Source of the DNA: Bradyrhizobium sp. NP1
GTDB lineage: Bacteria > Pseudomonadota > Alphaproteobacteria > Rhizobiales > Xanthobacteraceae
Length of the DNA stretch: 64,000 bases
Assembly (NCBI RefSeq): GCF_030378205.1
Contig: NZ_CP127385.1
Span: forward strand, 3,140,001 to 3,204,000
Reading direction: 5' to 3'
Shown here: positions 35,489 through 53,472 of the stretch, in pieces
How positions within the stretch are numbered: position 1 is the stretch's first letter
Layout: every line of letters begins with the position of its first letter
Notes under the pieces: model-generated
Told to the model about the DNA's origin: nothing
What the model saw: the letters and a program-made list of their open reading frames with translations, nothing else
The model's database searches: none
Program-made: the position numbers and the translations under genes

Positions 35489-35695
35489 GCCGTCATCCTC
35501 GACGTGTGGAACAACCATAGGATCTGGCTATATTGGGTTCAAGCCGAACCTATTGCGGCGTTGCGTAGCAGGCTCCGTCCCGCGGCGCAGCATGGAAACT
35601 GAACAACGACCTCGGTCGTTGATGCGGGTTGCGAAAATGCAAAAATTCCTGCGTGGCCGCGAGCGACGTGCCTAGGCTGATCCGAAAAACCGCCG

Positions 35696-36982
35696 ATGAA
35701 TTTCGTCCCGAGTCTCAGCATCATCGCTGCCCTGCTGGCGATTTATTCAACGCCGGCGCAAGCGCAATTGACAGGCCACGGTGGGCCCGTGCGGGCGATT
35801 GCGATTTCCGGTGACGGCAATAGCGTCCTGTCGGGCAGCTTCGACACTGCCGCCATCCGATGGTCGCTCAAGACCGAATACGCCGAGCAGGTCCTTCGCT
35901 TTCATTCGGACGCCGTGAACGCAGTCGCCTTCCTGAAGGATGGGCGCATGGCGACCGCCGGAGCGGACGCGCGGATAGCGATCTGGACGCCTGGCCGGCC
36001 GCGGCCGGATCAGGTTTTGGAGGGCCATCGCGCGCCAATCGCTTCGCTCGCTGTCTCGCCGGACGGCGCGAAGCTCGCCACTGCGTCGTGGGATCACACG
36101 GTTCGCGTCTGGTCGCTTGCTGACGGTGGCCAGCAGGTGCTGGAGGGGCATGCGCAGAACGTAAATGGAGTCGTTTTCACTCCGGACGGACGATCGCTCG
36201 TCAGTGTCGGTTACGATCACGAGTTGAGGATCTGGCCAAGGACGGGCGGAACGCCGGACGTCATCGTGCTCCCGTCACCTCTTAACGCACTGACGGTCGC
36301 TCCTGACGGCGAAGTCGTGACGGGTGGCGCCGATGGAAAGCTGCGCTTTCTCACCTCGGAGGGTCAGGAAACGGGCGAGGCGCAAGCCGGCGCGACGCCA
36401 ATCATCGCGCTGGCGATGTCGCGGGACGCCACGTTGATCGCTGCTGCAGCAATTGGCGGCGTCGTGGCCATCTTCGATCGAAAGGCGCGGAGCATCGCCC
36501 GAACGTTGGGCGATTCCGGTTCGCCGGTGTGGTCAGTCGTGTTCCTGCCGGACAACGTAACATTGCTGACGGGCGGAGCCGACGGCAAGATCCGACGCTG
36601 GAATGCGCGGACTGGCGATCCCATCGGCTCTTCGTTGCAAGCCACGGCACGCGATCCGCTTGCCGCCTATGCGGGAGATCACGGTGCCGAGGTGTTCAGG
36701 GCGTGCATTGCCTGCCACACCTTGTCGGACAAGGAGGTGCAGCGCGCGGGCCCCACGCTTGCGGGCTTGTACGGCCGCAGGATTGCGTCCCTTCCCGGCT
36801 ACCGCTTCTCAGAAGCCCTGAAGGGCATGAACATCGTGTGGACGCCGGAAACAGTATCAAAGCTGTTCGAGGTCGGTCCGAACGCCTATACGCCGGGGAC
36901 AAAGATGCCGGAGCAACGCATTGGATCGGCGGAAGACCGCAAGGCGCTCACCGATTTTCTCGCGCGTGCGACATCGAACTAG
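35696..36982 (+). CDS. WD40 beta-propeller fused to cytochrome c
   Basis: A 428-residue exported protein. The signal peptide is 1-23 (cleavage after AQA). About seven WD40 repeats follow, for example GHRAPIASLAVSPDGAKLAT then ASWDHTVRVWS, to roughly residue 315. The C-terminal 100 residues form a class I cytochrome c with haem motif CIACH and the axial Met in YTPGTKMPEQR. A periplasmic propeller carrying a haem domain could dock electron-transfer partners. It lies two kb from the formate dehydrogenase locus but is not in its operon. Its stop codon lies inside the palindrome that starts at 36979. Confidence 0.88.
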   Translation: MNFVPSLSIIAALLAIYSTPAQAQLTGHGGPVRAIAISGDGNSVLSGSFDTAAIRWSLKTEYAEQVLRFHSDAVNAVAFLKDGRMATAGADARIAIWTPGRPRPDQVLEGHRAPIASLAVSPDGAKLATASWDHTVRVWSLADGGQQVLEGHAQNVNGVVFTPDGRSLVSVGYDHELRIWPRTGGTPDVIVLPSPLNALTVAPDGEVVTGGADGKLRFLTSEGQETGEAQAGATPIIALAMSRDATLIAAAAIGGVVAIFDRKARSIARTLGDSGSPVWSVVFLPDNVTLLTGGADGKIRRWNARTGDPIGSSLQATARDPLAAYAGDHGAEVFRACIACHTLSDKEVQRAGPTLAGLYGRRIASLPGYRFSEALKGMNIVWTPETVSKLFEVGPNAYTPGTKMPEQRIGSAEDRKALTDFLARATSN

Positions 36983-37572: not shown

Positions 37573-39591
37573 TCAATCCTTGTTTTCGCGCCGGCGCAAA
37601 TAGTCGTCCGTCGTGCGCGGCGGCGCGCGCGCCGGAATGTCCTTGAACGGATCGAACTGCTGCTCGCTCATGGCGATGACGCGGCAGTCCGCGCACATTC
37701 TGACCACGTCCATCCGCTTGTCGCCTGTGGGATACATCCAGTGCCGGCCCTCGAGTTTCGCGGCGATCTTGTCGATCGTGCTCTTCACGCCAAAGGGCTT
37801 GTTGCAGCGGATGCAAAACGCTGGCTCTTCTTCCTTGATGATCTGGGCCGCCGCCCTGGCTGCACGGAAATCGATCTGCGGCTTCAGCGTAATGACCTTC
37901 TCCGGGCAGGTGCTCTGGCACAATCCGCACTGCACACAGGCGTCTTCGACGAATTTGAGCACGGGACGTTCGGGATCATCGCGGAGAGCGCCGGTGGGAC
38001 AGACTGAGACACAGGACAGGCACAAGGTGCATCCCTCGATGTTGACGCTGATCGTGCCGAGCGGCGCGCCTTCCGGCAGCGCAATCACGTCAACGGGGCC
38101 GGGTGCCACGCGGTGCAGCTCGCTCAGGGCAAAGCGAAGCAGATCGGGCCGCTTGCCGACCGTCTTGAAAGTGGCGGGGCGCTCGACGGCCGGAGCTGGC
38201 CCGATTCTCTTGAGCGTCTCGCCGAGCGCATCAGGATCCTCGGTTTCGACCGTTGCGACCGGGCAGCCCAAAAATCCAAGGCCGGAAAGAATGGCATCGG
38301 CCGTCGCAATCGTCTGCGAAAGCCCGGTGACGTCGTGCAATGGCTTTGCGCGGAGAAGGAAACGCACACCAGCCGCGCCGTAGGCGAAGGCGGCCACGAT
38401 CGCCTCCAGACCAACTTGCGTCACCTCATTCACCGCAAAGGGCAGCACAGTAGCCGGCAGACCGTCACCATGGCGGGCGAGCGCATCGATCAGCGCGCTG
38501 CCGTGTCGGCTGTCGTGGAACAGCACGACGGCATTGGCGCCGCCGGCTTCTCGGTAGGTCAAGAGCATCGCTCGCAATTTGTGCAGCAAGGTGTCGCCAG
38601 GCGGCAGGGCATAGGTTGCAGCGCCCGTCGGACAGGCCGCGGCGCACTGGCCGCACCCGGCGCAGATCTCCGCGTCGATTTTGACGTGATCGCCATGCGG
38701 CGTGATCGCGCTGGTTGGGCAGAGATCAAGGCAACGATGACAACCGGTCAGCTTCGAGCGCGAATGGGCGCAAAGCGATGCGGTGAAGTTGACGTATTTC
38801 GGCTTGTCGAAATTGCCGACAAGGTCGCGCGCCTTGAGCACCGCACGCAGCATCGCGGTCGGATCTCGCGGATCCGCGCGGAGATAACCGTCGCGCAAAT
38901 CATATGCGGGAAAAAGCGGTGTTCCGCCGGAGAGGTCAAGGACGAGGTCGCAGCGCGAAGTCAGGCCATTGCGCGAGGCTTCGAAGACGAGCGAATCGCG
39001 CGAGGAGGGGTCGGGGGCAGCGTAGTCGTCGACCGTCAACTCGAAGGTTCCCAGATAGCCCTTGGCATTGCGGATCGTTCCCTTGACGATGGGGAACGAT
39101 GTCGTGGCCGGAGGCGTAATCTGCGCCGGCTTTGTGATCATGACCGTTACGTCGAGGTGATCGGCAAGCAGTTGGCCTGCCTCGACTGCAACGTCGTCGC
39201 GGCCGTAGATCAGAACCACGCCGTCGCTCTTCAAGGCAACGAATGGATAAGCGGGCTCAGCTTCGGACGCAGCTGCGAGCAGCGCTGCCATTTTTGGGCC
39301 TGCCTTGGCTCCCTCGACCGACCAGCCGGCCGTCTCGCGCAGGTTGACGAAGTCAATTTTCCCGGCACGTTCTCCGGCCTCGCGGCGGAACAGCGGGGCC
39401 TCCTGTGTGCAGCCGACGAGGAGCGATCCTTCTGCCCTCGCTGCACTGCGAAAATGATCAAGCTCGGCCCGGCAGAGCTGGCGGAACTCGGCGATTTCGC
39501 TTTTGCGGCATCCTCGCTTAACAGCGGCCGTATCGAGATGCATCGTGTCTTCGCACGAGCAGATCAGGATCGATTTCGACGGATCCGGCAT
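37573..39591 (-). CDS. Polyferredoxin-type 4Fe-4S protein of the formate dehydrogenase locus
   Basis: A 672-residue iron-sulfur protein. The N-terminal third has isolated Cys (ILICSCEDTM, LLVGCTQEA). A first ferredoxin pair is at about 280-325 (CHRCLDLCPTSA and CAGCGQCAAACPTGAATY), and a second near 525-575 (CTLCLSCVSVCPTGAL and CVQCGLCQSTCPEK). CIRCNKPFG and a final CADCRV add extra Cys pairs. I chose the ATG at 39591 over a GTG at 39597. It diverges from the lipoate-ligase-like gene at 39737 and probably passes electrons to or from the formate dehydrogenase or its assembly machinery. It is cytoplasmic, as no signal is visible. Confidence 0.85.
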   Translation of the reverse strand: MPDPSKSILICSCEDTMHLDTAAVKRGCRKSEIAEFRQLCRAELDHFRSAARAEGSLLVGCTQEAPLFRREAGERAGKIDFVNLRETAGWSVEGAKAGPKMAALLAAASEAEPAYPFVALKSDGVVLIYGRDDVAVEAGQLLADHLDVTVMITKPAQITPPATTSFPIVKGTIRNAKGYLGTFELTVDDYAAPDPSSRDSLVFEASRNGLTSRCDLVLDLSGGTPLFPAYDLRDGYLRADPRDPTAMLRAVLKARDLVGNFDKPKYVNFTASLCAHSRSKLTGCHRCLDLCPTSAITPHGDHVKIDAEICAGCGQCAAACPTGAATYALPPGDTLLHKLRAMLLTYREAGGANAVVLFHDSRHGSALIDALARHGDGLPATVLPFAVNEVTQVGLEAIVAAFAYGAAGVRFLLRAKPLHDVTGLSQTIATADAILSGLGFLGCPVATVETEDPDALGETLKRIGPAPAVERPATFKTVGKRPDLLRFALSELHRVAPGPVDVIALPEGAPLGTISVNIEGCTLCLSCVSVCPTGALRDDPERPVLKFVEDACVQCGLCQSTCPEKVITLKPQIDFRAARAAAQIIKEEEPAFCIRCNKPFGVKSTIDKIAAKLEGRHWMYPTGDKRMDVVRMCADCRVIAMSEQQFDPFKDIPARAPPRTTDDYLRRRENKD

Positions 39592-39736
39592 GCGCACAGC
39601 CTTTTACCTCGCAAAGAGGTCGGCGGAAGGACGGCGAGCGGACTCGCATAGACCCTTCTGCTTCATCAAGCTATTCTCACAAAGGGAGAAAAGGAAGCTG
39701 GAGGTCCGACTGACACCGACAGCCGCCAGGCGCTCA
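39592..39736. promoter_or_regulatory. Divergent promoter region of the formate dehydrogenase locus
   Basis: This 145-base gap separates the leftward polyferredoxin gene from the rightward accessory operon and must carry both promoters. An AT-richer tract (CTTCATCAAGCTATTCTCAC, near 39660-39680) is the most promoter-like part. No palindromic operator is evident. Confidence 0.45.
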
Positions 39737-40465
39737 TTGGTCTCGGAGCCAATCAATCTGCCTCCGCCATTCACGCTGGTGAGGCTGCGCGAGAGCCGTG
39801 ACGCCTTCGCCCACGCCATCGAAATCGCCGAGGAGAGTGGGGCAGGTACGCTGACCTATGTGGGACGGTTCGACCTTGCCGAGTTCGCCGTCGTGCTTGA
39901 ACCCGGCGAGGCCTTGCGCGCCGCGCGCCGGGCCTTCTATGCCGCGATGGTGGCGCTAACCGACGCCCTGCGCGCGTATGCACCGCCAAACAAGGAGATC
40001 GCGATCGACTGGCCGGACGCGATCCGTGTCGACGGCGGCCTTGTCGGTGGCGGGCGGCTTGGCTGGCCGTCGTCCACGAAAGAGGATGAGCCGCCGCGCT
40101 GGCTGGTGTTCGGCGCCATGATCCGGACAGTCGCGATGACCGACGGTGAAGCGGGCGTGCGTCCGCTTGCCTCCGCACTCGACGAGCAGGGCTTTGGCGA
40201 GGCCGGCGCGGTTCAGATCACGGAAAGCTTTGCACGGCATCTGATGCTCATCACCGACACCTGGCAGGTCGATGGTTTCGACGCCGTCGCGCGCGAATTC
40301 TTGCTCCGGTTGACGCGTGAGCAGCAGGCCGCTCATGTGATCGACGACAATGGCGATCTCCTGGTACGCCGTATCGGGCGCGACAGGCCAGATCGGCGCG
40401 ATTTGAGGAAAGGCTTGCTATCGCCCTCCTGGCTCGATCCGAAGCTCGGAGGGCCGCGCCTATGA
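39737..40465 (+). CDS. Biotin/lipoate A/B protein ligase family protein
   Basis: A 242-residue protein resembling the BPL/LplA fold. It has INLPPPFTLVRLRESRDAFA at the start, then WPDAIRVDGGLVGGGRLGWP in place of the ligase substrate loop, and DEPPRWLVFGAMIRTVAM. The open frame runs upstream over the divergent gene, but similarity begins at the TTG at 39737, which I take as start. In related genomes this protein accompanies respiratory formate dehydrogenase. No biotin- or lipoyl-dependent enzyme is in the locus, so it may act on another acyl group or be non-catalytic. The stop overlaps the next ATG. Confidence 0.75.
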   Translation: MVSEPINLPPPFTLVRLRESRDAFAHAIEIAEESGAGTLTYVGRFDLAEFAVVLEPGEALRAARRAFYAAMVALTDALRAYAPPNKEIAIDWPDAIRVDGGLVGGGRLGWPSSTKEDEPPRWLVFGAMIRTVAMTDGEAGVRPLASALDEQGFGEAGAVQITESFARHLMLITDTWQVDGFDAVAREFLLRLTREQQAAHVIDDNGDLLVRRIGRDRPDRRDLRKGLLSPSWLDPKLGGPRL

Positions 40466-40998
40466 AGCTCTTGCGCACCATCGCGCTCGACCCTTCCGAC
40501 ACTTTCATTTTCGACGTGCCGGCGAAGCCCGGCGATTGGGCGGTGTCCGGCGCATTCCGCTTTTGTGATCGCGATCCGGCGAGCCTGAGCGGCAAGGATC
40601 GCTCGGCGTTCCGCAGCGGTTTTCTCGGCGTGCGGTCCTGGGGCTGGTCGACGCTGGCGCAAATCGTCCACGCGACCGAGGACGATCGCCGAACGTTGGT
40701 GGAACTCCTGGCGAGGCAACTGGTCGAACGGTTCGGTGCGCCGGACCTTGCAACCGCGCGCCTGGCGGCGGAGGAAGAAGTCGGATTTGCGCAGTCGCTC
40801 TGCACGCATCCCATTAGCACGCTGATCGCCGTCCACCGCTTGGCAAGCGATGGCGAGGTCCGCGAGTCATTCCGCAGATTGCAACTTCGAGAGGGGCAGG
40901 GTCACGGTAAGGCGTTCTCGTTCATGGAAATGGAGGATGACAACGAACCCAGCGATCTTAACGTTGCGAACGTGAGCGAGGAGCCGCCGCGCCGATGA
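40462..40998 (+). CDS. DUF6505-like protein of the formate dehydrogenase locus
   Basis: A 178-residue cytoplasmic protein starting MKLLRTIALDPSDTFIFDVP and containing GDWAVSGAFRFCDRDPASLS then KDRSAFRSGFLGVRSWGWST. I recall this as DUF6505, found with formate dehydrogenase genes; no function is known. Both ends overlap neighbours by four bases (ATGA), giving tight translational coupling with the lipoate-ligase-like protein and the DUF6352-like protein. There are no metal-binding clusters or membrane segments. Confidence 0.75.
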   Translation: MKLLRTIALDPSDTFIFDVPAKPGDWAVSGAFRFCDRDPASLSGKDRSAFRSGFLGVRSWGWSTLAQIVHATEDDRRTLVELLARQLVERFGAPDLATARLAAEEEVGFAQSLCTHPISTLIAVHRLASDGEVRESFRRLQLREGQGHGKAFSFMEMEDDNEPSDLNVANVSEEPPRR

Positions 40999-42002
40999 AG
41001 GATTTCTGGATCGCCTGCGGCCATCACCTGCTCGATCGCGATGCGAACGGCGGGCTCGTGGTCACGGATGAGTTCCTGAAAGCCTATTTCGTGCGTCCTG
41101 AGCTGATGCCGCCGGACGTTGCTTGCGCGGTCGAGCGCCGGCTGCAAGGGGAATTGCTGGCCGATCCGCGCCGGGCAATCAGCGCGGAAGAGGTTGCCGC
41201 AATCGCCGATTTGGATGCTCGGGAGAATTGGCAATTCGTGCTGGCATTTCGCGACCTTTTGCTGTGTCATGCCACGTTGGAGGCGGCCTATCTCGCCTTG
41301 ATCCGCTCGGGATCCGTCAACTTACCGCCGCTGTTTGTGAACCAGCTCGTTCACGTGATCCTGCGCAACGCGCTTGATGGATGCGAGGATCCATTCGTGC
41401 TGCGGGCGGCGGAGCTGTTCTTTCGGCCGCAGCGCATCATTCCGCATGAACATTCCCTGCTGCTGGGCGACGAGGAAGTCATCGGCAGCCCTAGTCCGAC
41501 CCCGGTGTTGTCGCTGATGTCCATGCTGGGCGCAACGTCCGGCGCCCAAGTCGATGTGCTCACCGAGGAGAACGCTGCAAGCTATTGGCAGCGCAGTGAC
41601 GAGTTCGATCTTGCGCTTGATTGCACGGGCGGAGGACCGGGGCCGGCAGCGCTGGCAGATGCAATGAGACGCTGGATTTCCCATTTGCTGGGGATTGACG
41701 TCGGAATCGAGCCACTCACGGCACTGCGCGACGCAAAACTCACCTGGTATGTTGGGCTCGATGCTGAGGCCACCCGCATCGGTGACCGGCTCTGGCATGG
41801 AGAGGAGCTGGACGACCACGCCGCGAGCCGTGTGCTGACGCTATTTCGCCTCACCTTTCCCGATACCGGCCTGGTCGTTGATGCCGTCGGGCGCGAGCCG
41901 GTCTATCTGATCCTTGCAATGACCTCCGACCAGCATGTCCGGATGAAGCCACAGAATCTGTTGATGGGACTGCCGATCAGGCACCTGGAGGCTGCTACGT
42001 GA
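40995..42002 (+). CDS. DUF6352-like protein of the formate dehydrogenase locus
   Basis: A 335-residue protein beginning MKDFWIACGHHLLDRDANGG, with VTDEFLKAYFVRPELMPPD and LRAAELFFRPQRIIPHEHSL. These features match the uncharacterised DUF6352 family as I recall it. It is largely helical, without signal peptide or Cys clusters. It overlaps both neighbours by four bases. Its constant association with DUF3305/DUF3306 and formate dehydrogenase points to enzyme maturation, but the role is unproven. Confidence 0.75.
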   Translation: MKDFWIACGHHLLDRDANGGLVVTDEFLKAYFVRPELMPPDVACAVERRLQGELLADPRRAISAEEVAAIADLDARENWQFVLAFRDLLLCHATLEAAYLALIRSGSVNLPPLFVNQLVHVILRNALDGCEDPFVLRAAELFFRPQRIIPHEHSLLLGDEEVIGSPSPTPVLSLMSMLGATSGAQVDVLTEENAASYWQRSDEFDLALDCTGGGPGPAALADAMRRWISHLLGIDVGIEPLTALRDAKLTWYVGLDAEATRIGDRLWHGEELDDHAASRVLTLFRLTFPDTGLVVDAVGREPVYLILAMTSDQHVRMKPQNLLMGLPIRHLEAAT

Positions 42003-42514
42003 GCCGCGGCGTCGTTCCTTTGTTGCGTATTCCGGTCGGCGTCGTGGTCGAGCGCCGCAAGGCGGATTCCTCATGGACCGATTTTGTCTGGCGCGGCATC
42101 GGCGTATTGCCGGATGAGCCGGAGATAACGCCGTGGACTGTCATCCGGGAACAGGAGGGAACGACGCTCTTTTACGCCGGGAGCGCGACGGTCGATCTCT
42201 ATCGTTCCGAAACTGCGCGCTACCGCGACAATCTTGCCACGGGTGTTCCCAGCATCTGGATCGTATTGAGCCCTTTGGAAGGGCCCTGGCCGTATGCGGT
42301 CACGGCCGTCACCGCGGACCCCGCGGAAGGGGAGGCATTCACCGAAGCCGGCGCCAATCTGGTCGAGGCGGTGCCGATGCCAGAGGTGCTGCATGAGGCG
42401 ATTGAAAAATTCATCGCCGAGCACCACGTCGAGGCGGAGTTCGTCAAACGCGAGCGGCGCCGCGCCGATCCGGAGGCGCTTGCGCGGCGGCACCGTGAAG
42501 ATGGGCACGAATGA
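41999..42514 (+). CDS. DUF3305 family protein
   Basis: A 171-residue protein of the DUF3305 family, starting at a GTG that overlaps the preceding stop. Marks are RIPVGVVVERRKADSSWTDF followed by VWRGIGVLPDEPEI, then VDLYRSETARYRDNL and PSIWIVLSPLEG. The C-terminus is charged (FVKRERRRADPEALARRHRE). Family function is unknown; it is nearly always encoded with DUF3306 in formate dehydrogenase clusters. It is cytoplasmic. Confidence 0.85.
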   Translation: MSRGVVPLLRIPVGVVVERRKADSSWTDFVWRGIGVLPDEPEITPWTVIREQEGTTLFYAGSATVDLYRSETARYRDNLATGVPSIWIVLSPLEGPWPYAVTAVTADPAEGEAFTEAGANLVEAVPMPEVLHEAIEKFIAEHHVEAEFVKRERRRADPEALARRHREDGHE

Positions 42515-43167
42515 GCGACGAGCAATTCCTGGCGCGCTGGTCGCGCCGCAAGCAAGAGGCGAAGGCTGGTCACGTTGAATCAGCCCCCGAAGAGGCTGCT
42601 GAGACGCAAGGGTCGGCGCCGTCCGACCGTGCCGCGGCGGAACCGATTCCCCCGGAGCGGGATCTTTCGAACTTGCCCCCAATTGAATCAATTGATGCTG
42701 TCACCGACGTCACGGCTTTTCTGCGCGAGGGCATTCCGCAGGAGCTGCGCCGTGCGGCGCTTCGTCGCGCCTGGAGCGCCGATCCCGTTATCCGCGATTT
42801 CGTGGGGCTGGCGGAAAACGCCTGGGACTTCAATGACTCGAACGCCATGCCTGGCTTCGGTCCGCTGGACTATTCGCCCGAGCAGGTTGACGCACTCGTC
42901 CGCCGCATCGTCAGAGGGGTGGTGGAGACCGCTGATTGCCTCCCCAATTCGCTCGCAGAGGTGGCCGAAGACGCTGCGCGATCGGCCCCCGCGGATGCCA
43001 GTTTTGCGGAATCACCCAGTCCGGTGAAGGCGACCACGGATCCTCGACCGTCAGAGGAGACCGCCGCAGCGGAATCGCTGTCAAATTCTGTTGCATCGCA
43101 ACCAGCGGCTGCGAGTGAAGAAACTCCCCCTGCGCCCCGGACGCATGGCGGAGCGTTGCCTCGCTAG
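42511..43167 (+). CDS. DUF3306 family protein
   Basis: A 218-residue protein of the DUF3306 family. The core begins FLARWSRRKQEAK and includes LPPIESIDAVTDVTAFLREG then IPQELRRAALRRAWSADPVI and ENAWDFNDSNAMPGFG. The last 80 residues are Ala/Ser/Pro-rich and disordered. The ATG overlaps the DUF3305 stop. It is the last of five overlapping genes; a 119-base gap then leads to the chaperone gene. The function is unknown but linked to formate dehydrogenase by context. Confidence 0.85.
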   Translation: MSDEQFLARWSRRKQEAKAGHVESAPEEAAETQGSAPSDRAAAEPIPPERDLSNLPPIESIDAVTDVTAFLREGIPQELRRAALRRAWSADPVIRDFVGLAENAWDFNDSNAMPGFGPLDYSPEQVDALVRRIVRGVVETADCLPNSLAEVAEDAARSAPADASFAESPSPVKATTDPRPSEETAAAESLSNSVASQPAAASEETPPAPRTHGGALPR

Positions 43168-43286
43168 ACTGCGACTAAATGCGATAGCCTCAGGCTATGG
43201 CTATCAATTGACCGCTCCCCGGCACGCGCCTAATCTTTGTTAAGCGAACGCAATCAAGCGCTTGGCCCCTTGGATGGGAGGTCGGC

Positions 43287-44066
43287 ATGCGCGATGCGGG
43301 CCTCGAACTTGCCATCGATGCGGCGGGCGGCGTTGCTCAGCTTGCCCGAAAAATCGGTATTGCCCAGCCCTCAGTATCGAACTGGAACACGGTGCCGGCG
43401 CAGCGCGTGATTGCGGTCGAAGCCGCCACAGGCGTGTCGCGCAAGGTGCTTCGTCCCGATCTCTACAGTGAGCCTGCTGTTACGGACGACGCGGTTGATC
43501 CGATCGATGCTAGGCGCGTACAGGAATACGCGCTGTTGGCAACCTTGCTTGCGTCGGCGCCGTCGGCCGCATTGCTCGAGCAGATCGCGCAACTGCGCGA
43601 CGATGCGACGCTGCTGGGACGAGCCCACGCAGCTCTCGCGGAAGCCGCGGTAACGGCGGTCGCATCCGAAGTTGAGCGCGAATATTTCGATCTGTTCGTC
43701 GGTCTCGGCCGCGGCGAGTTGCTGCCTTACGCATCCTATTATCTGACCGGTTTTCTCAACGAACGCCCGTTGTCGCGCCTGCGCGACGATCTCGCCACGC
43801 TCGGCATCGAGCGGGTGGAGAACAATTTTGAACCCGAGGATCATGCGGCGACCCTGTGCGAGATCATGGCGGGTCTTGTGGCGGCGCGGTTTCCTGCATC
43901 GCCGGATGCACAGCGCGCCTTCTTCGAGAAGCATGTGTCCCGCTGGATGGGACGTTTATTCGCCGACATGGAGAAGGCGGAAAACGCCAAATTCTATCGA
44001 TCGGTCGGGACGCTTGGGCGCGCGTTTTTGGAGATTGAAACTGAAGCTTTCACATTCGCCAACTGA
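43287..44066 (+). CDS. TorD-family chaperone with N-terminal YdaS-like helix-turn-helix
   Basis: A 259-residue two-part protein. Residues about 1-60 (AIDAAGGVAQLARKIGIAQP, SVSNWNTVPAQRVIAVEAAT, then a VSRKVLRPDLY end) match the YdaS/Cro-like DNA-binding fold. Residues about 75-255 match TorD/DmsD chaperones, which bind twin-arginine leaders of molybdoenzymes: EYFDLFVGLGRGELLPYASY with a following YLTG, and ENNFEPEDHAATLCEIMAGL. GGGAGG lies six bases before the ATG. It directly precedes the formate dehydrogenase genes and probably guards folding and export of the alpha subunit. The DNA-binding head suggests it may also sense unfolded enzyme and regulate transcription. Confidence 0.88.
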   Translation: MRDAGLELAIDAAGGVAQLARKIGIAQPSVSNWNTVPAQRVIAVEAATGVSRKVLRPDLYSEPAVTDDAVDPIDARRVQEYALLATLLASAPSAALLEQIAQLRDDATLLGRAHAALAEAAVTAVASEVEREYFDLFVGLGRGELLPYASYYLTGFLNERPLSRLRDDLATLGIERVENNFEPEDHAATLCEIMAGLVAARFPASPDAQRAFFEKHVSRWMGRLFADMEKAENAKFYRSVGTLGRAFLEIETEAFTFAN

Positions 44067-44094
44067 CCAGCGCCGCTGGTCCAGGAGAGATGCG

Positions 44095-44304
44095 ATGAGG
44101 GACGAGAAGAAGACGACGGTTGCCCGCCGCGATTTCCTTCGCAAGGTCGGCATCGGCACGGTCGGTGCGGGGGCGACGCTGGCAACACCCTTGCTGACGC
44201 CCGCGCAGGCCGACAGCGAGACCGACGACGAGAAACGCAAGGCGCGTTACAAGGAAACCGACCATGTGAAAGCCTACTACCGCGTCAATCGTTATCCTTC
44301 TTGA
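44095..44304 (+). CDS. Small twin-arginine protein of the formate dehydrogenase operon
   Basis: A 69-residue protein with a twin-arginine leader (VARRDFLRKVGIGTVGAGAT, cleavage likely after PAQA at about 39) and a short charged mature part ending KAYYRVNRYPS. AGGAGA precedes the ATG. Such small Tat proteins commonly sit just before the alpha subunit in formate dehydrogenase operons; their role is unknown. The mature peptide of about 30 residues could be a small exported subunit. Confidence 0.8.
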   Translation: MRDEKKTTVARRDFLRKVGIGTVGAGATLATPLLTPAQADSETDDEKRKARYKETDHVKAYYRVNRYPS

Positions 44305-44315
44305 AGGAGGCGGCC

Positions 44316-47264
44316 GTGCTGATCAAGAGAACATCACAGCGTTCCGAATCCGCTTCCCGCGGATCGATTGCTGCAGCCCTGTCCGGGCAAGGCAACGGCC
44401 TCGACCGCCGTGCGTTCCTGCGCCGATCAGGCCTCGCCGGTGGCGCTCTCGCCGCGTTGGGCACGCTGCCAGTCGGCAGCGTCCGAAAGGCGCAAGCGGC
44501 CATGGCAGGTCCTCTCACCTCGGGAGCGACCACTCGCAAGAGCGTCTGCACGCATTGCTCGGTTGGATGCACCGTGACCGCGGAAGTGCTGAACGGGGTA
44601 TGGATCGGCCAGGAGCCGAGCTGGGATTCCCCGATCAATCGCGGATCGCACTGTGCCAAGGGTGCTTCCGTGCGTGAGCTTGTGCACAGCGAGCGGCGGC
44701 TGCGCTATCCGATGAAGCTCGTGAATGGGCAATGGACACGCGTGTCCTGGGACACCGCGATCAACGAGATCGGCGACAAGCTCCAGGAAATACGCGAGAA
44801 GTCGGGCCCCGATTCCGTTTATTGGCTCGGGTCGGCCAAGATGACAAACGAAGGCGCCTATCTGTTCCGCAAGCTCGGCGCGTTCTGGGGAACCAACAAC
44901 ACCGACCATCAGGCGCGCATCTGCCATTCGACAACCGTCACCGGCGTAGCCAACACCTGGGGTTACGGCGCGATGACCAACAGCTTCAACGACATCCGCA
45001 ATGCCAAGACCCAGATCATCATGGGCGGCAATCCGGCCGAGGCGCATCCGGTATCGCTCCAGCATCTGCTCGAAGGCAAGGAGCTTCAAAAGGCCAACTT
45101 CATCGTCATCGACCCGCGCCTGACGCGAACCGCGGCGCACGCAACTGAGTATGTGCGCATGCGGCCGGGCACCGACATCCCGGTGCTTTACGGCATGATG
45201 TGGCACATCCTCCAGAACGGGTGGGAGGACAAGGAGTTCATAAAGCAGCGTGTCTACGGTTTTGATGATCTCCGGAAAGAAGTGGAGAAGTGGAATCCCG
45301 AAGAAGTCGAACGCGTCAGCGGCGTTCCCGGCGAACAGCTCAAACGCGTCGCCAAGCTTTTGGCCACCGAGAAGCCGGCAACGCTGATCTGGGCCATGGG
45401 GCAGACCCAGAAGACCGTCGGTACCGCCAACGTGCGGGCAAGTTGCATCGCACTGTTGCTGACCGGAAATGTCGGCGCCCCCGGCACCGGTGCCAACATC
45501 TTCCGCGGCCACGACAATGTGCAGGGAGCGACCGACGTCGGGCTCGATATCGTCACGCTGCCGTTCTATTACGGCCTTGCCGAGGGCGCGTGGAAGCACT
45601 GGTCGCGGGTTTGGGAAGTCGACTACGACTATCTGTTGTCGCGCTTCGACTCCAAGCAGATCATGGAAACCCCGGGTATTCCTCTCACCCGCTGGTTCGA
45701 AGCGGTGACGCTGCCGAAAGATCAGGTCGCGCAGAAAGACAATGTGCGGGCGGTTTTCGTGCAGGGACACGCCAGCAACAGCATCACCCGCATTCCGGAA
45801 TCGATGAACGGTTTGAAGGCGCTCGACCTGCTCGTCGTCGCCGACCCGCATCCGACCACCTGGGCCTCGCTCGCGGTGGAGGCCGGACGTAAGGATGGCC
45901 TCTACATTCTTCCGGTTGCCACGCAATTCGAGTGCAAGGGGTCGCGCGTCGCCTCGAACCGCTCGCTGCAATGGGGCGAGCAGATCGTCAAACCGGTATT
46001 CGAATCGAAGGATGACCTAGAGGTCATGTATCTGGTGGCGAAGAAACTCGGCTTCGCCGACAAGATGTTCAAGAACGTCAAAGTCGAGAACAATCTTCCC
46101 GAGGCTGAGGATATCCTGCGCGAAATGAACCGCGGCAGCTGGTCGACCGGTTACTGCGGCCAGTCACCCGAGCGTCTCAAGGCGCACATGAAGAACCAGG
46201 CCAAGTTCGACTTCTTGACCATGCGCGCGCCCAAGGACGATCCAGAAGTCGGTGGCGACTATTACGGCCTGCCCTGGCCGTGCTGGGGGTCGCCGGAAGT
46301 CAGGCATCCGGGCACCCCGCTGCTCTACAACACCAATCTCCACGTGATGGATGGCGGCGGCACGTTCCGGCCGCGCTTCGGTATTGAGCGCGAGGAGAAG
46401 CTACCTGACGGCACGACGCGGAAGGTCAGCCTGCTCGCAGACGGTTCGTACTCAAAGGATTCGGAGATCAAGGACGGCTATCCGGAATTCACGCTGGCGA
46501 GCCTGAAGAAGCTCGGCTGGGACAAGGATCTGACCGAGGCGGAAATGGCTACCATCACCAAGGTCAACTCTGCCAATCCGGATACGGTGTCGTGGTCGCT
46601 CGACCTGTCTGGCGGTATCCAGCGCGTTGCGCTGATGCACGGCTGCGTGCCTTACGGTAACGGCAAGGCGCGCATGAATGCGTTCGGCTTGCCCGATCCG
46701 ATTCCGGTTCATCGCGAGCCGATCTACACGCCGCGCGTCGATCTGGTCGCGAAATATCCGACGCTGCCCGACGCCAAGCAGTTCCGAATGCCCAATATCG
46801 GCTTCTCTGTGCAGAAAGCGGCGGTCGAGAAGGGGATCGCCAAGCAGTTCCCGCTCATCCTCTCCTCCGGTCGGCTCGTCGAGTATGAGGGCGGTGGCGA
46901 GGAGACGCGAACCAACCCGTGGCTCGCCGAGCTTCAGCAGGACATGTTCATCGAGATCAGCCCGGCTGATGCCGCCGATCGCGGCATCAAGGACGGCGGC
47001 TGGGTCTGGGTCACCGGCGCCGAAAATAATTCGCGCGCCCGGATGAAGGCGCTCGTAACCGAGCGTGTCGGCAAGGGCGTCGCCTGGATGCCTTTCCACT
47101 TTGGCGGCTGGTTCGCAGGCAAGGATCTTCGCGGCAACTATCCGAAGGGCACCGACCCGATCGTTCTCGGCGAAAGCGCGAACACGATCACCACCTACGG
47201 ATACGATCCGGCGACCGGCATGCAGGAGCCCAAAGTCACTCTTTGCCAGATCGCGGCAGCATAG
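44316..47264 (+). CDS. fdhA: Formate dehydrogenase alpha (catalytic) subunit, periplasmic, Cys type
   Basis: A 982-residue molybdenum/tungsten bis-pterin enzyme oxidising formate to CO2. It has a twin-arginine leader (LDRRAFLRRSGLAGGALAAL), a 4Fe-4S site (CTHCSVGC ... HCAKGAS), and the active-site segment ARICHSTTVTGVANTWGYGA with Cys at the position of Sec in E. coli FDH-N (RVUH). The pterin-domain C-terminus is intact. I chose the GTG at 44316, with AAGGAGG six bases upstream. It forms the FdnG/FdoG-like respiratory complex with the beta and gamma subunits downstream. The codon is an ordinary Cys codon, so no selenocysteine is needed. Confidence 0.95.
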   Translation: MLIKRTSQRSESASRGSIAAALSGQGNGLDRRAFLRRSGLAGGALAALGTLPVGSVRKAQAAMAGPLTSGATTRKSVCTHCSVGCTVTAEVLNGVWIGQEPSWDSPINRGSHCAKGASVRELVHSERRLRYPMKLVNGQWTRVSWDTAINEIGDKLQEIREKSGPDSVYWLGSAKMTNEGAYLFRKLGAFWGTNNTDHQARICHSTTVTGVANTWGYGAMTNSFNDIRNAKTQIIMGGNPAEAHPVSLQHLLEGKELQKANFIVIDPRLTRTAAHATEYVRMRPGTDIPVLYGMMWHILQNGWEDKEFIKQRVYGFDDLRKEVEKWNPEEVERVSGVPGEQLKRVAKLLATEKPATLIWAMGQTQKTVGTANVRASCIALLLTGNVGAPGTGANIFRGHDNVQGATDVGLDIVTLPFYYGLAEGAWKHWSRVWEVDYDYLLSRFDSKQIMETPGIPLTRWFEAVTLPKDQVAQKDNVRAVFVQGHASNSITRIPESMNGLKALDLLVVADPHPTTWASLAVEAGRKDGLYILPVATQFECKGSRVASNRSLQWGEQIVKPVFESKDDLEVMYLVAKKLGFADKMFKNVKVENNLPEAEDILREMNRGSWSTGYCGQSPERLKAHMKNQAKFDFLTMRAPKDDPEVGGDYYGLPWPCWGSPEVRHPGTPLLYNTNLHVMDGGGTFRPRFGIEREEKLPDGTTRKVSLLADGSYSKDSEIKDGYPEFTLASLKKLGWDKDLTEAEMATITKVNSANPDTVSWSLDLSGGIQRVALMHGCVPYGNGKARMNAFGLPDPIPVHREPIYTPRVDLVAKYPTLPDAKQFRMPNIGFSVQKAAVEKGIAKQFPLILSSGRLVEYEGGGEETRTNPWLAELQQDMFIEISPADAADRGIKDGGWVWVTGAENNSRARMKALVTERVGKGVAWMPFHFGGWFAGKDLRGNYPKGTDPIVLGESANTITTYGYDPATGMQEPKVTLCQIAAA

Positions 47265-47276
47265 GGAGCAACGACC

Positions 47277-47873
47277 ATGGCACGTATGAAATTCCTCTGC
47301 GACGCCGACCGTTGCATCGAGTGCAATGCCTGCGTCACCGCCTGCAAGAACGAGCATGAGGTGCCCTGGGGCATCAACCGGCGCCGCGTCGTCACCCTCG
47401 ATGACGGCAAGCCAGGAGAACGATCGATCTCGATGGCCTGCATGCACTGCACCGACGCGCCCTGCGCGGCCGTCTGCCCTGTGAATTGCTTCTACACGAC
47501 TGCCGACGGCGTCGTGCTTCACTCCAAGGATCTGTGCATCGGTTGTGGCTATTGCTTCTACGCCTGTCCGTTCGGTGCACCGCAATACCCGAAGGTCGGC
47601 AATTTCGGCTCCCGCGGCAAAATGGACAAATGCACGTTCTGCGCCGGCGGCCCCGAGGCCGACGGCAGCAAGGAGGAGTACGAGAAATATGGAGCAAACC
47701 GTCTCGCCGAGGGCAAATTGCCGCTCTGCGCCGAGATGTGCTCGACCAAGTCGCTGCTTGCGGGCGACGGAGAGATCATCGCCCAGATCTACAAGGAACG
47801 TGTGATGAAGCGCGGTTACGGCTCCGGGGCCTGGGGCTGGAAGACCGCCTATCACGAGACGATCGAGTCCTGA
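47277..47873 (+). CDS. fdhB: Formate dehydrogenase beta (iron-sulfur) subunit
   Basis: A 198-residue ferredoxin-type electron-transfer subunit with four 4Fe-4S motifs: CIECNACVTACKNEH, CMHCTDAPCAAVCPVNCF, CIGCGYCFYACPFGAPQY and the split CTFCAGG ... CAEMCSTK. It receives electrons from the alpha subunit and passes them to the haem b of the gamma subunit. It lacks the C-terminal membrane anchor seen in E. coli FdnH. It starts 13 bases after the alpha subunit. Confidence 0.94.
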   Translation: MARMKFLCDADRCIECNACVTACKNEHEVPWGINRRRVVTLDDGKPGERSISMACMHCTDAPCAAVCPVNCFYTTADGVVLHSKDLCIGCGYCFYACPFGAPQYPKVGNFGSRGKMDKCTFCAGGPEADGSKEEYEKYGANRLAEGKLPLCAEMCSTKSLLAGDGEIIAQIYKERVMKRGYGSGAWGWKTAYHETIES

Positions 47874-47908
47874 CGTTGCCCGTGGTCGCGCAAGATCGGG
47901 AGGAACTG

Positions 47909-48913
47909 ATGGCGTGTTTTGCACGATTAATTCGGCTAGCGATTGGCGCGGGCGCGCTCCTGTTGCTCGTCTCCGCGGCTTCACCGTCCATTGCCCAGCA
48001 GATCAATCCGACTGCAAGCGCGGTAAAGGAGCGGCAGCTCTTGCAGGAGCTGAACCGGATCCAGGGACGCGTGAGCATTCCTGATCAGCGCTCAGGCGTG
48101 CTGGAGCAGCCTGCGGGGCGCGAGTGGCGGGAATTCCGAAATGTCACCCTGCGCTGGATCGGTGGCATCGCCATTCTTGGCATGCTCGCGGCGCTGATCA
48201 TCTTCTACCTCCGCCGCGGCATGGTGCGACTGGAGAGCGGTCGTTCCGGCCGGACCATCGTGCGCTTTACGTCATTCGAGCGCTTCGTGCATTGGATGAC
48301 CGCGACCTGCTTCATCATTCTGACGATTTCCGGATTGAACATAACCTTCGGACGTCCGTTGCTCCTGCCGCTGATCGGCCACGAGGCGTTTTCCGAATGG
48401 TCGCAGTGGGCCAAGTATGCGCACAACTATTTGAGCTTCCCGTTCACCATCGGCGTCGTGCTGATCTTCTTGATGTGGATTGCAGGAAACATCCCCAATA
48501 AGGTGGACGTCGACTGGGTCAAGCGCGGTGGCGGTATGGTGGGTCACGATCATCCGCCGGCCTATCGTTTTAACGCCGGCCAGAAGGCGATCTATTGGAT
48601 CGTGGTGATCGGCGGTGGCCTGGTGGCGGCCACCGGATATGAGCTGATGTTCCCCTTCTATCTGTCAGGTATCGAAGGGATGCAGCTTGCGCAGATCGTC
48701 CACTCGATCGTGGCGATGCTGTTCGTGGCGGCGATGGTGGCGCACATCTACATCGGCACGATCGGCATGGAAGGCGCGTTCGAGGCGATGGGCAGCGGCA
48801 CCGTCGATGTCAACTGGGCGAAGGAGCACCATAGTCTCTGGCTTGAAGAGCAGAATGCGCGTACCGGTGCAAACGACGCGCGACCGCATCCCGCCGTCAC
48901 TGCGGCGGAGTAG
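47909..48913 (+). CDS. fdhC: Formate dehydrogenase gamma (cytochrome b556) subunit
   Basis: A 334-residue membrane subunit. There is a signal-like N-terminus (cleavage near SIAQ, about 28) and a hydrophobic span at about 85-105. The cytochrome b domain has four helices starting TSFERFVHWMTATCFIILTI. Haem-ligating His residues are likely in FERFVHWMT, KYAHNYLSF, AQIVHSIVAML and VAHIYIGTIG. It passes electrons to the quinone pool. GGGAGGAA precedes the ATG. The N-terminal extension beyond E. coli FdnI is usual for alphaproteobacterial homologues. Confidence 0.93.
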   Translation: MACFARLIRLAIGAGALLLLVSAASPSIAQQINPTASAVKERQLLQELNRIQGRVSIPDQRSGVLEQPAGREWREFRNVTLRWIGGIAILGMLAALIIFYLRRGMVRLESGRSGRTIVRFTSFERFVHWMTATCFIILTISGLNITFGRPLLLPLIGHEAFSEWSQWAKYAHNYLSFPFTIGVVLIFLMWIAGNIPNKVDVDWVKRGGGMVGHDHPPAYRFNAGQKAIYWIVVIGGGLVAATGYELMFPFYLSGIEGMQLAQIVHSIVAMLFVAAMVAHIYIGTIGMEGAFEAMGSGTVDVNWAKEHHSLWLEEQNARTGANDARPHPAVTAAE

Positions 48914-50370: not shown

Positions 50371-51552
50371 CTATGACGTGCGGTTGAGAAAAATCGGCAG
50401 CCCCCGCTTGTTGGCGTAGATGGGGCGGTAACGCTCCGTGTTGTAGGTGCTGGCAACGTCCAGTTTGCGCGGCCCGAGCTTGGCGTCAGGGATGGGCACG
50501 AGGTCGTAGCAGCCCTCCACCAGCGCCGACATGAGGCCGGTCTTGCCTTCCAGCATCGCATCGTAGGCCATGTTACCGAAAGTCAGTGCCACAAGCTTGT
50601 CGATGAAGTCCGGATCGCCCGATCGCAGGTCGTAGGTGAGATCAGAGACGATGGTCTCCTCGCCGGTGCGCCGCTTGATCTCGTCGGCAAGCGATTCCGC
50701 CACGTTGGCCTTCTTGCGGTGACCGTAGGCGTCGGGTTCGCCGTATTCCTGCAGCCTGAAGCCCTCCCACTCGGCGCCCTCGCTGAGCACGACCAGCGCG
50801 TAGTTGCTTGGGTTGGCGCGCTTGTCCTCGAGTAGCAGCTGGATCAGCTTGTCGAGGTTAACCTTGTACTCTGGTATGACGCATCGTATCGAGGTCGCGT
50901 ACGCAGTGTAGAGAGCGGTAAATCCGGCGTCGCGGCCAAAGACGCGGAAAATGCCAATTCGCTCATGCGAGCCGACGGTGGTGCGCTGCCGCTGGATGGC
51001 ATCGCTGGCGCGGGTGATCGCGGTCGAGAAGCCGATACAGTACTCGGTGTTGCGGACGTCGTTGTCCATCGTCTTTGGGATGGCGATGATCCTGACGCCG
51101 AGTTCATTGAGCTTGGCCGCATAACTGAGCGTGTCGTCGCCGCCGATGGCGATCAGGTGTTCGATGCCCAGTCCCGAAAGGTTCGCCAGCACCTGGCCAG
51201 TGAGGTCCCACGTCGCGATGCCGTCCTTGGTGCTCAGCGAGACTGGAGCATCCTTGCCGACGAGATGATTGGGCAGCTTTTTTATTTTAGACGGATTGAT
51301 GCGGCTCGAGTGCAGCACGGTACCGCCGCGCCGGTCGATGGTGCGGGTGTTTTCACGGTTCAGCGGAATGACATAGTGAGACCTGCTGGCCGTGTCCTCA
51401 AGGTTCAGGTGCGTGAGGGCCTCCCAACCGCGGCGCAGACCGATGACCTCGATGTCGTTCTCACTGCCGCGATAAGTCACGCTCTTGATGACGGCATTGA
51501 GGCCGGCGACGTCGCCGCCGCCCGTAAGAATACCGATGCGTTTTTTAGCCAT
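50371..51552 (-). CDS. pfp: Phosphofructokinase, pyrophosphate type
   Basis: A 393-residue phosphofructokinase. GGGD (11-14) is the phosphoryl-donor loop. GGDDT (137-141) and PKTMDND (159-165) carry Asp and Lys at the two positions where ATP-using enzymes have Gly, the classic signature of pyrophosphate dependence. FRVFGRDAGFTA and YDLRSGDPDF also fit. It interconverts fructose 6-phosphate and fructose 1,6-bisphosphate, reversibly if PPi is used. I chose the ATG at 51552, with AGGAGG five bases upstream. It lies 109 bases behind an aldolase/phosphatase for the same metabolite. Some GGDD/K enzymes still use ATP. Confidence 0.9.
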   Translation of the reverse strand: MAKKRIGILTGGGDVAGLNAVIKSVTYRGSENDIEVIGLRRGWEALTHLNLEDTASRSHYVIPLNRENTRTIDRRGGTVLHSSRINPSKIKKLPNHLVGKDAPVSLSTKDGIATWDLTGQVLANLSGLGIEHLIAIGGDDTLSYAAKLNELGVRIIAIPKTMDNDVRNTEYCIGFSTAITRASDAIQRQRTTVGSHERIGIFRVFGRDAGFTALYTAYATSIRCVIPEYKVNLDKLIQLLLEDKRANPSNYALVVLSEGAEWEGFRLQEYGEPDAYGHRKKANVAESLADEIKRRTGEETIVSDLTYDLRSGDPDFIDKLVALTFGNMAYDAMLEGKTGLMSALVEGCYDLVPIPDAKLGPRKLDVASTYNTERYRPIYANKRGLPIFLNRTS

Positions 51553-51661
51553 ACCCACCTCCTGGGATCGGCATGTCGCAATAGCGCCTGCATCTGTCGA
51601 TCAAATGCACGGTGAATGTCGCTCCAGCTACGGTGAATGCCGCTCCAGCTTCTGGAGGTCA

Positions 51662-52807
51662 CTACTCGGCCGCTTCCGGCTTACACTCGTCGCGCAGCCG
51701 AAAACGCTTCACCAGCGCGGACACGGTATCGCGGAAGCCGCCATACTCCAGCTCGGAATAGGGCAGCATCGCTGCGCCAGACCAGCCCTGGCTGCGCATC
51801 TCGATGGCTTTGCGCTGCGCGCACCGGCGGACCTCGTCCCACGCGGGGTTGTCGAAGAAGTCGGTATAGGACTCGGAAAAGCGGCCTTCCTTGTCGATCG
51901 AAAAGCCGGCGCAAGAAACGATCGGCAGGCAGTACATCCCTGTCACTGGTGTATTAAGTGGCACGGGCATGAGCGGCATCACGTGCGAGCCGCGCGCATC
52001 GCCGCCCACGAAGTGCGCCTTGGCGAACGGGGAGATGATTTCCTCTGGCGCCGGGAAAATCCCCTGGTTCCGGACGATCGCGACCGGATCATCCTTGCCG
52101 GTATATTTGCCTGCGATCGAGTGCAGACGCTGCGCCGAGATGGCAACGGCGACTTTGCCATATGTTTGAGAAATGATGCGATCAATGCCGAAGCGCTCGT
52201 TGTCGCGGAGCAGCGCGGCAATGTGGTAGCTGTCCGCGGGCGCATCGAGTTCGATCACGCTGTCGCCGGCCGTGTTGTCCATGTCGATGACATGGAAACG
52301 GAATCCCTTGATCATCTGGGGCAGCATCAGCCCTGCGCAATACATGGGATCGGCAAAGGCAAGGTAGAGCGGTAGATTGTAGGCGCCGGGGCCGCATTTG
52401 TCGGCGGCGAACACCATGAAGGACTCTGCGGGTCTCGGGCCCGAGAGGCTGTGGTCGAAGCTGAGCTCGGCGACGGCCGGGCCGGCACCGCGAATGTTTC
52501 CGGAAGGCGCGTCTGCGAGAAGGTCCTGACCGGCGCCGTAGAGACCGGAAGTTTTCGCAACCGAAGTGGCCGCGAGAAACGCCTTCCACGCGAGTTGATG
52601 GATCTCGGAGCTACCTTCGCCCTTTATGTGCGTCATGATGATCGCAATGTCGTCGCCGGTATGGCAGACGAAACCGTCGATCAGCAGATCATTGCAGATC
52701 GCCTTCGCCACCTCGCGCTCGACAGTCGCCATCATGCGTGAAGACGGTTTCGTATGCCCGCCAACCGAGCCAACGTCAGCCTTGATGACTGAAAGGGTGA
52801 GTCTCAT
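51662..52807 (-). CDS. Fructose-1,6-bisphosphate aldolase/phosphatase (archaeal type)
   Basis: A 381-residue class V FBPase of the bifunctional aldolase/phosphatase kind, best known from archaea and deep-branching bacteria. The N-terminal MRLTLSVIKADVGSVGGHTK supplies metal-binding residues. HTGDDIAIIMTHIKGEGSSE carries the conserved DD pair, and FAADKCGPGAYNLPLYLAFA the later motif. I chose the ATG at 52807, with GGAG eight bases upstream. It makes fructose 6-phosphate from triose phosphates in gluconeogenesis. Its pairing with a PPi-type phosphofructokinase puts both directions of this step in one operon. Confidence 0.92.
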   Translation of the reverse strand: MRLTLSVIKADVGSVGGHTKPSSRMMATVEREVAKAICNDLLIDGFVCHTGDDIAIIMTHIKGEGSSEIHQLAWKAFLAATSVAKTSGLYGAGQDLLADAPSGNIRGAGPAVAELSFDHSLSGPRPAESFMVFAADKCGPGAYNLPLYLAFADPMYCAGLMLPQMIKGFRFHVIDMDNTAGDSVIELDAPADSYHIAALLRDNERFGIDRIISQTYGKVAVAISAQRLHSIAGKYTGKDDPVAIVRNQGIFPAPEEIISPFAKAHFVGGDARGSHVMPLMPVPLNTPVTGMYCLPIVSCAGFSIDKEGRFSESYTDFFDNPAWDEVRRCAQRKAIEMRSQGWSGAAMLPYSELEYGGFRDTVSALVKRFRLRDECKPEAAE

Positions 52808-53472
52808 GAGCGCATCTCCGACCGGCACAGCCCAACACTTCGGCCTCGGCGCTCGCTGCGCCGGGGCACGGCGCTGCTCATTCGCGGACAAAACGTCGGT
52901 CGCTGCGATAGGTTCCACGCGCCCCGTTCCACCGGTGATCGGGATCATGCAGAATTTTCCTTAGGACGGATGCGCACCATTTGCTGCGCTGCACGAGCCG
53001 GGTTGTGGTCCGACTCAGATCTCCGGCGAGGTCCGCTTGCGCGCCGCTCTTAAGGGCATACCAGACGCGCCCTGACCCGCTGGGTCTGGGGAAGGGGTGT
53101 CGTGGTGCTGGCACTACGTTAGGCGGCTGTGTGACGAGCGGCGAGACCTTTCAATTTCGACCATCTAATCCACAACAGCAGGCGGAATTTACTACCCACA
53201 GGCGGAGACCGGTTGACCGATCCCCGTCGTCAGCGCCTCTCAAAAGCTGTGGGATTGTTGTAGCTGTCGCCAAAAGTGAGAATGGGCAGGTCCATGGCCC
53301 CGAGGCGGCATCGTTCATCCATTTGATGTTGTCGAAAGGGGCAATCTCATCATGCAGCTCGCGGATATCGTACCGCTGTCATGGGCTTGCCATCGGGGCG
53401 CAGCGGCAGTGGCCTTGGCGGAACACGATCCATAGCCATGAACCTTACCTCGCAATCCGCACTCGACATGCA

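Follow-up and report, generated by a model that had tools for sequence, protein, structure and literature searches.

The stretch of DNA analyzed here (the window) comprises 64,000 nucleotides of Bradyrhizobium sp. NP1 (contig NZ_CP127385.1, positions 3,140,001 to 3,204,000) and carries, at 37573..48913, a formate dehydrogenase (FDH) locus in which a cassette of five accessory genes is flanked by a divergent polyferredoxin gene on one side and by the genes of a TorD-type chaperone and an FDH3-type enzyme on the other. A check of open reading frames (ORFs) and Pfam matches found every gene named in an initial annotation of this DNA in its place and confirmed the layout with four-base overlaps that it had described. 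On the forward strand, the cassette encodes, in this order, a biotin/lipoate-ligase-like protein that belongs to PF16917 (BPL_LplA_LipB_2; 39710..40465, 199 bits), DUF6505 (40462..40998, 179 bits), DUF6352 (40995..42002, 215 bits), DUF3305 (41999..42514, 136 bits), and DUF3306 (42511..43167, 86 bits; poorly conserved in its C-terminal part), all with Pfam scores above cut-off. The junctions are four exact 4-bp overlaps (ATGA at 40462, ATGA at 40995, GTGA at 41999, and ATGA at 42511). The start codon of the ligase-like gene is uncertain, the candidates being TTG at 39737 and CTG at 39710, and an in-frame ATG at 39590 overlaps the beginning of the divergent gene.

That divergent gene (37573..39591, minus strand, ATG at 39591) encodes a 672-aa polyferredoxin with an N-terminal CxC..C..C arrangement, four Fer4-type motifs, and a C-terminal CxxC-X36-CxxC pair. 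Downstream of the cassette, DUF3306 is separated from the chaperone gene by a 119-bp gap that contains a conserved dyad, and the locus may therefore be split into two transcription units. The chaperone (43287..44066, plus strand) is a fusion of a YdaS/Cro helix-turn-helix (HTH) domain with a TorD/NarJ-family domain, and it is followed on the same strand by a 69-aa protein with a twin-arginine translocation (Tat) motif, here named FdhX (44095..44304), by the catalytic subunit FdhA (44316..47264; Tat motif RRAFLR), by the beta subunit FdhB (47277..47873), and by the cytochrome b561-type membrane subunit FdhC (47909..48913). The Cys of an ARICH motif in FdhA presumably occupies the metal-ligand position. 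The enzyme is of the FDH3 type, as FdhB scores 342 bits against NF038355 (cut-off 240). By eye, neither the polyferredoxin nor any of the five cassette proteins has a signal peptide, and a hydropathy scan gave no clear membrane segment, a single stretch of the polyferredoxin being borderline (1.61, with the line at 1.6).

We examined how these genes are distributed across 179 genomes of the phylum, a fixed sample requested at a completeness of at least 95%. DUF3305, DUF3306, and an FDH3 beta subunit above cut-off each occur in 28 genomes, and these are the identical 28 genomes, from 11 families. Frequent occurrence of the cassette without FDH would have spoken against a link between the two, and it was not seen: none of the 28 DUF3305 genomes lacks the FDH3 beta subunit, and each of the 31 DUF3305 genes has its start no more than 11.3 kb from an FDH3 beta gene, of which there are also 31. 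The polyferredoxin query matched 108 genomes, mostly through short Fer4 stretches, and the matches of more than 200 bits lie in the same 28 genomes, a comparison from which one genome (G171) was excluded by hand. DUF6505 was found in 17 of the 28 and the ligase-like protein in 16, all 16 with DUF6505, its usual companion; PF16917 exceeds 90 bits in 17 genomes, one of which (G016) has a genuine ligase instead. DUF6352 is present in 12 of the 28, namely, ten of the 17 DUF6505 genomes together with G019 and G160. The expected genome-wide co-occurrence with FDH thus held for DUF3305 and DUF3306, and the other three families are optional. Because DUF3305, DUF3306, and the polyferredoxin are found in all 28 genomes and the remaining genes in 17, 16, and 12, the cassette is layered, with a universal core and optional layers.

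Copies away from FDH were also found: DUF6352 is unlinked in G019 and G160, and DUF6352, DUF6505, and a polyferredoxin stand apart from FDH in G016. The neighbors scanned around unlinked DUF6352 genes (G019, G160, G016, and L084) are unrelated or without a family match. Among the relatives found with DUF6352, which are mostly Bradyrhizobium, the best 80 of 115 loci were fetched, and most of these show the gene set in nearly the same order; the exceptions include short contigs and the loci L083 and L084 from betaproteobacterial metagenome-assembled genomes, in which DUF6352 stands alone on the stretch examined. The genome of the window, a single contig of 7.7 Mb, has three FDH3 loci. One of the two further loci (L004) has an altered cassette in which no ligase-like or DUF6505 gene was found, and in the other (L005) DUF6352 sits behind the polyferredoxin and Mrp.

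We consider it likely, with a probability of about 0.7, that the cassette is a dedicated cytoplasmic maturation set of the FDH3-type periplasmic FDH, which would act independently of FdhE and, in the Bradyrhizobium-like lineage, with self-control by the HTH-TorD chaperone. A maturation role, one of the two suggested by the initial annotation, gains support from the co-occurrence, from the lack of export signals, and from the neighboring genes. Clustering of the ORFs at 49 loci together with Pfam matches returned FdhD, Mrp (identified by NUBPL and FeS_assembly_P), MoeA, MobB, MobA, ABC-transporter genes, PBP_like_2, and a WD40-cytochrome c fusion as recurrent neighbors. Since the stretches around the loci differ in length, the counts per 28 genomes are lower bounds: WD40-cytochrome c 11, Mrp 11, FdhD 10, MoeA 6, MobA 5, MobB 4, and PBP_like_2 4. 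In 14 of the 28, an FdhD gene is found no farther than 15 kb from a core gene, and Mrp, the ligase-like gene, and DUF6505 are consecutive in seven genomes. The FDH-specific protein FdhE (PF04216) was detected in 25 of the 179 genomes, 0 of the 28 with FDH3 (the genome of the window included) versus 25 of the 151 others, for which P would be 0.010 on the assumption, not valid here, of independent genomes. Families f1, f2, f14, f27, and f35 include both FDH3 and FdhE genomes, never with both in one genome.

The ligase-like protein is predicted from its sequence to be a non-catalytic scaffold. The Lys of the KxxG motif is catalytic in biotin and lipoate protein ligases, and the GRGR nucleotide/biotin-binding loop defines ligase activity. 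Of the 95 locus ORFs assigned to this family, one (in G016, locus L139) is a genuine ligase, leaving 94. The catalytic Lys is absent from all 94 (75 Leu, 9 Arg, and 10 other residues), with Leu in its place in the protein of the window, and the GRGR loop is likewise absent from the domain in all 94, that protein included, although two of these ORFs, whose reading frames are over-long, carry a GRGR string hundreds of residues upstream of the domain. Both features are kept in four of four genuine ligases from the sampled genomes; of four further stretches retrieved for this comparison, two contributed unrelated ORFs, which entered one alignment as noise, and two contributed no ORF. With the loop and the Lys lost, there is no need for a biotinyl or lipoyl target, and this explains why the initial annotation saw no such target in the locus. 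The annotation of the PF16917 gene at FDH loci as a ligase is misleading and is corrected here. A solved biotin protein ligase-like relative, PDB 3bfm (60 bits), bears a title that gives unknown function. The match in G016 (95.9 bits) was rejected as a ligase-like protein, as it has GRGR, the Lys, and the PF03099 and BPL_C domains. This genuine biotin protein ligase (L139:3765-6023, plus strand) scores about 96 to 101 bits against PF16917, above the other genuine ligases listed, and it is possible that it is related to the ancestor of the ligase-like protein.

The chaperone belongs to the NarJ/TorD family (PF02613, 107 bits) and as such may bind the Tat signal of its enzyme. Its N terminus matches YdaS/Cro HTH models (PF15943, 54.7 bits, cut-off 30; PF14549, 32.4 bits, cut-off 30.2), and an automated name for such a TorD/YdaS fusion already exists in database records. 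Among the loci, 76 of 107 chaperone ORFs carry the HTH. In a span of 630 bp around the start of each chaperone reading frame, an ATAG-N7-CTAT dyad is present at 69 of the 76 HTH-positive and at 0 of the 31 HTH-negative ORFs, compared with 0 to 4 and 0 to 1, respectively, for eight control patterns. Five HTH-positive ORFs have the symmetric variant ATAA-N7-TTAT instead, and at loci titled other than Bradyrhizobium the dyad was found at 17 of 24, the variant at 5, and neither at 2. Because the loci are relatives of one another and the motif came from this very set, these figures are associations, not probabilities. In the window, the dyad before the chaperone gene, ATAGCCTCAGGCTAT (43184..43198, without strand), is a putative operator, and a second ATAG-N7-CTAT site (35517..35531, plus strand, from a pattern search of the window) lies 164 bp upstream of the WD40-cytochrome c gene, giving two sites where 0.12 are expected. 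At HTH-positive loci, 10 of 69 copies of the WD40-cytochrome c gene have the dyad upstream, against 0 of 10 at HTH-negative loci, two truncated copies being excluded. Of the 74 ORFs that have the dyad or its variant, 54 show the sequence TTGAC 7 to 10 bp after it. The association of dyad and HTH suggests that the chaperone may control its own expression in a manner tied to FDH assembly.

Several observations weigh against the proposal of a dedicated, self-controlled maturation set. The comparison of 28 genomes treats them as independent of shared ancestry. The lack of FdhE may simply reflect the absence of FDH-N-type enzymes, or replacement between FDH-N and FDH3, although FDH3 occurs without FdhE under either explanation. 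FdhD was found in 37 of 37 genomes tested, with or without FDH3, and in the genome of the window it lies away from the locus. G016 has DUF6505 without the ligase-like protein, and in G171 a 124-bit polyferredoxin match stands beside another molybdoenzyme, with no FDH3 beta subunit above cut-off. A match of the DUF3305 protein of the window to NF011058, a model of DUF3305-containing MobA (81 bits at positions 221 to 368 of 382), speaks for the proposal, but among 200 genomes of the order of genome G175, none had this fusion above cut-off, and of 54 matches at E <= 1e-30 none went past profile position 240, so that NCBI model NF011058 is the sole source of the MobA-DUF3305 fusion. Comparison of the DUF3305 and DUF6352 models with solved folds gave no useful match, and the molecular actions of these proteins are therefore guesses. 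As for the regulation, the loci that yielded the dyad are also those over which it was counted, the HTH-positive loci L079 and L080 have neither form of it, and a possible promoter beyond it (TTGACC-N17-TAATCT, 43208..43236, plus strand) has a poor -10 element and was not called by a consensus promoter scan.

Other readings of the same genes were weighed. The initial annotation had also suggested an electron-input module, in which the polyferredoxin and the DUF proteins would dock on FDH as an electron-transfer complex in the cytoplasm. A polyferredoxin with conserved iron-sulfur (Fe-S) motifs in 28 of 28 FDH3 genomes, locally similar to HdrA, FwdF, and MvhB-type carriers, would fit such a complex. 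However, the Tat motif of FdhA points to a periplasmic active site; such motifs occur on FdhA and the small FdhX, whereas the cassette proteins and the polyferredoxin show no export signal, and the recurrent neighbors are cofactor and Fe-S assembly genes, all of which makes electron input improbable. The five overlapping genes were further thought to encode one complex with its members in equal amounts. The four overlaps are what one would expect of an obligate equimolar complex, but the distribution over 28, 17, 16, and 12 genomes and the unlinked copies in G019, G160, and G016, with no ligase-like protein found in the latter, argue against it, and we regard this as quite improbable. A third reading, that the ligase lipoylates or biotinylates DUF6505 or some other target, could draw on the PF16917 match and on the presence of DUF6505 in 16 of 16 genomes with the ligase-like protein; the loss of loop and Lys in every copy, set against their retention in the four genuine ligases, renders it highly improbable.

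As for the regulatory part, it is conceivable, if on balance unlikely, that an unlinked regulator recognizes the dyad, or that the dyad functions as an RNA element, and that the HTH of the chaperone acts elsewhere. The motif is post hoc, and the genome shows no excess of it, with 14 sites compared with 17 for a reversed control pattern, a result on which the candidate of a genome-wide dyad regulon was dropped. Against this reading, the paralogous FDH3 loci L004 and L005 of this genome have neither HTH nor dyad, and the ATAA/TTAT variant retains the symmetry; the inner bases of the dyad pair inconsistently (22, 25, and 18 of 51 distinct sites), unlike those of a hairpin.

Parts of this picture resemble known systems. 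In E. coli, FdhE and FdhD mature FDH-N and FDH-O (PMC10609526); as in the cassette, these are cytoplasmic accessory proteins for a Tat-exported FDH, and FdhD is found in all 28 FDH3 genomes as well, but FdhE is missing from all 28, in which a different set of proteins occurs. The available part of that article covers FdhD, FdhE, and NapF and contains no occurrence of the term DUF. NapF is described there as a cytoplasmic Fe-S protein for Fe-S assembly of NapA, and the polyferredoxin is likewise a cytoplasmic Fe-S protein that would serve an exported molybdoenzyme. Its match to the NapF model TIGR00402 is local and below family membership (44.1 bits, cut-off 102.2), and it has 672 aa where the model has 149 positions; the match to HdrA (NF041891) is equally local and below membership (55.8 bits, cut-off 1300). 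Four N-terminal Cys residues (C13, C15, C42, and C63, numbered from an upstream GTG) are kept in 27 of 35 aligned polyferredoxins and missing in seven sequences (f35, f37, and f55) and in G171. Of the sixteen Cys in the four Fer4-type motifs, the 27 retain every one and the seven have Val or Ala in place of one; all 35 sequences have the C-terminal CxxC pair. In G171 (L156), a polyferredoxin with this same pair adjoins a different, 955-aa molybdoenzyme.

DUF3305 and DUF3306 were reported in 2015 upstream of 60% of DmsD-linked fdh operons (fdhGHI) (PMC4464133), and the cassette is therefore undescribed only in part; no mention of DUF6352 or DUF6505 was found in the open-licence literature searched. 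The NarJ/TorD/DmsD systems of that report share the chaperone family and the DUF3305/DUF3306 pair with this locus, whereas DUF6352, DUF6505, and YdaS do not occur in the part of its text at hand, and it calls DUF3305/DUF3306 putative membrane proteins, in contrast to our hydropathy scan. In the open-licence literature, as far as titles and the starts of abstracts go, nothing on point was found on a link between TorD, an HTH, and FDH. The tungsten-cofactor pathway MoeA1-MobB-MobA-FdhD of Methylorubrum extorquens serves FDH1 (PMC13197769); late cofactor genes of the same kind lie near several FDH3 loci, but the terms FDH3 and DUF do not occur in the main text of that article as available. To the known elements our results add that the cassette is layered, that FdhE is missing beside FDH3, that the ligase is dead, and that the chaperone, with its dyad, is a predicted DNA-binding protein.

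Some neighbors merit mention in their own right. The fusion of a WD40 propeller with cytochrome c (35696..36982, plus strand) has a signal-like N terminus by eye, and it is possible that this recurrent neighbor is a periplasmic electron partner or acceptor of FDH3. Near FDH3 in 4 of 28 genomes, PBP_like_2 and ABC genes (e.g., L126:14250-15062, minus strand) look like tungstate uptake, the former resembling TupA, and at these loci the enzyme may use tungsten. The cluster of ABC-transporter neighbors (9 genomes) was not used, as it mixes unrelated ABC proteins, including an ABC-F type ATPase. At 50371-51558 and 51662-52948 (minus strand), the window carries, next to each other, a PFK-family gene (PF00365, 214 bits; under all NCBIfam cut-offs listed) and a gene of the fructose-1,6-bisphosphatase/aldolase type (FBPase_3, 476 bits; NF041126, 447 bits, cut-off 520), a kinase paired with a phosphatase of opposite direction.

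If the cassette is a maturation set, DUF3305, DUF3306, and the polyferredoxin, whose presence in every FDH3 genome is observed, would hold apo-FdhA together with the TorD-family chaperone, and FdhA and FdhB would be assembled in the cytoplasm before Tat export. Provision or reduction of Fe-S clusters is the probable task of the polyferredoxin, much as NapF serves the periplasmic nitrate reductase, and Mrp is a further likely source of clusters, while FdhD would sulfurate and hand over the bis-molybdopterin guanine dinucleotide cofactor. As an add-on, the non-catalytic ligase-like protein would work with DUF6505, in several lineages beside the Fe-S carrier Mrp, and DUF6352 may contribute as an additional, optional component. 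In the Bradyrhizobium-like lineage, the HTH of the chaperone probably binds the ATAG-N7-CTAT dyad before its own gene, and transcription of the FDH genes would then follow the amount of unassembled FdhA. We tentatively extend this to a second, FdhE-independent route by which exported FDHs are built. Here the chaperone, joined to a repressor or activator of the Cro type, would detect free FdhA and thereby switch its own operon by way of the dyad. We rate this extension somewhat below even odds.

Maturation is a bottleneck for the use of metal-dependent FDH in CO2 and formate chemistry, and the locus narrows the genes worth testing or co-expressing to a few and offers a probable FdhE-free maturation set, present in 11 families of the sample. 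If the extended proposal is true, the assembly state of a metalloenzyme would be read directly by a DNA-binding chaperone.

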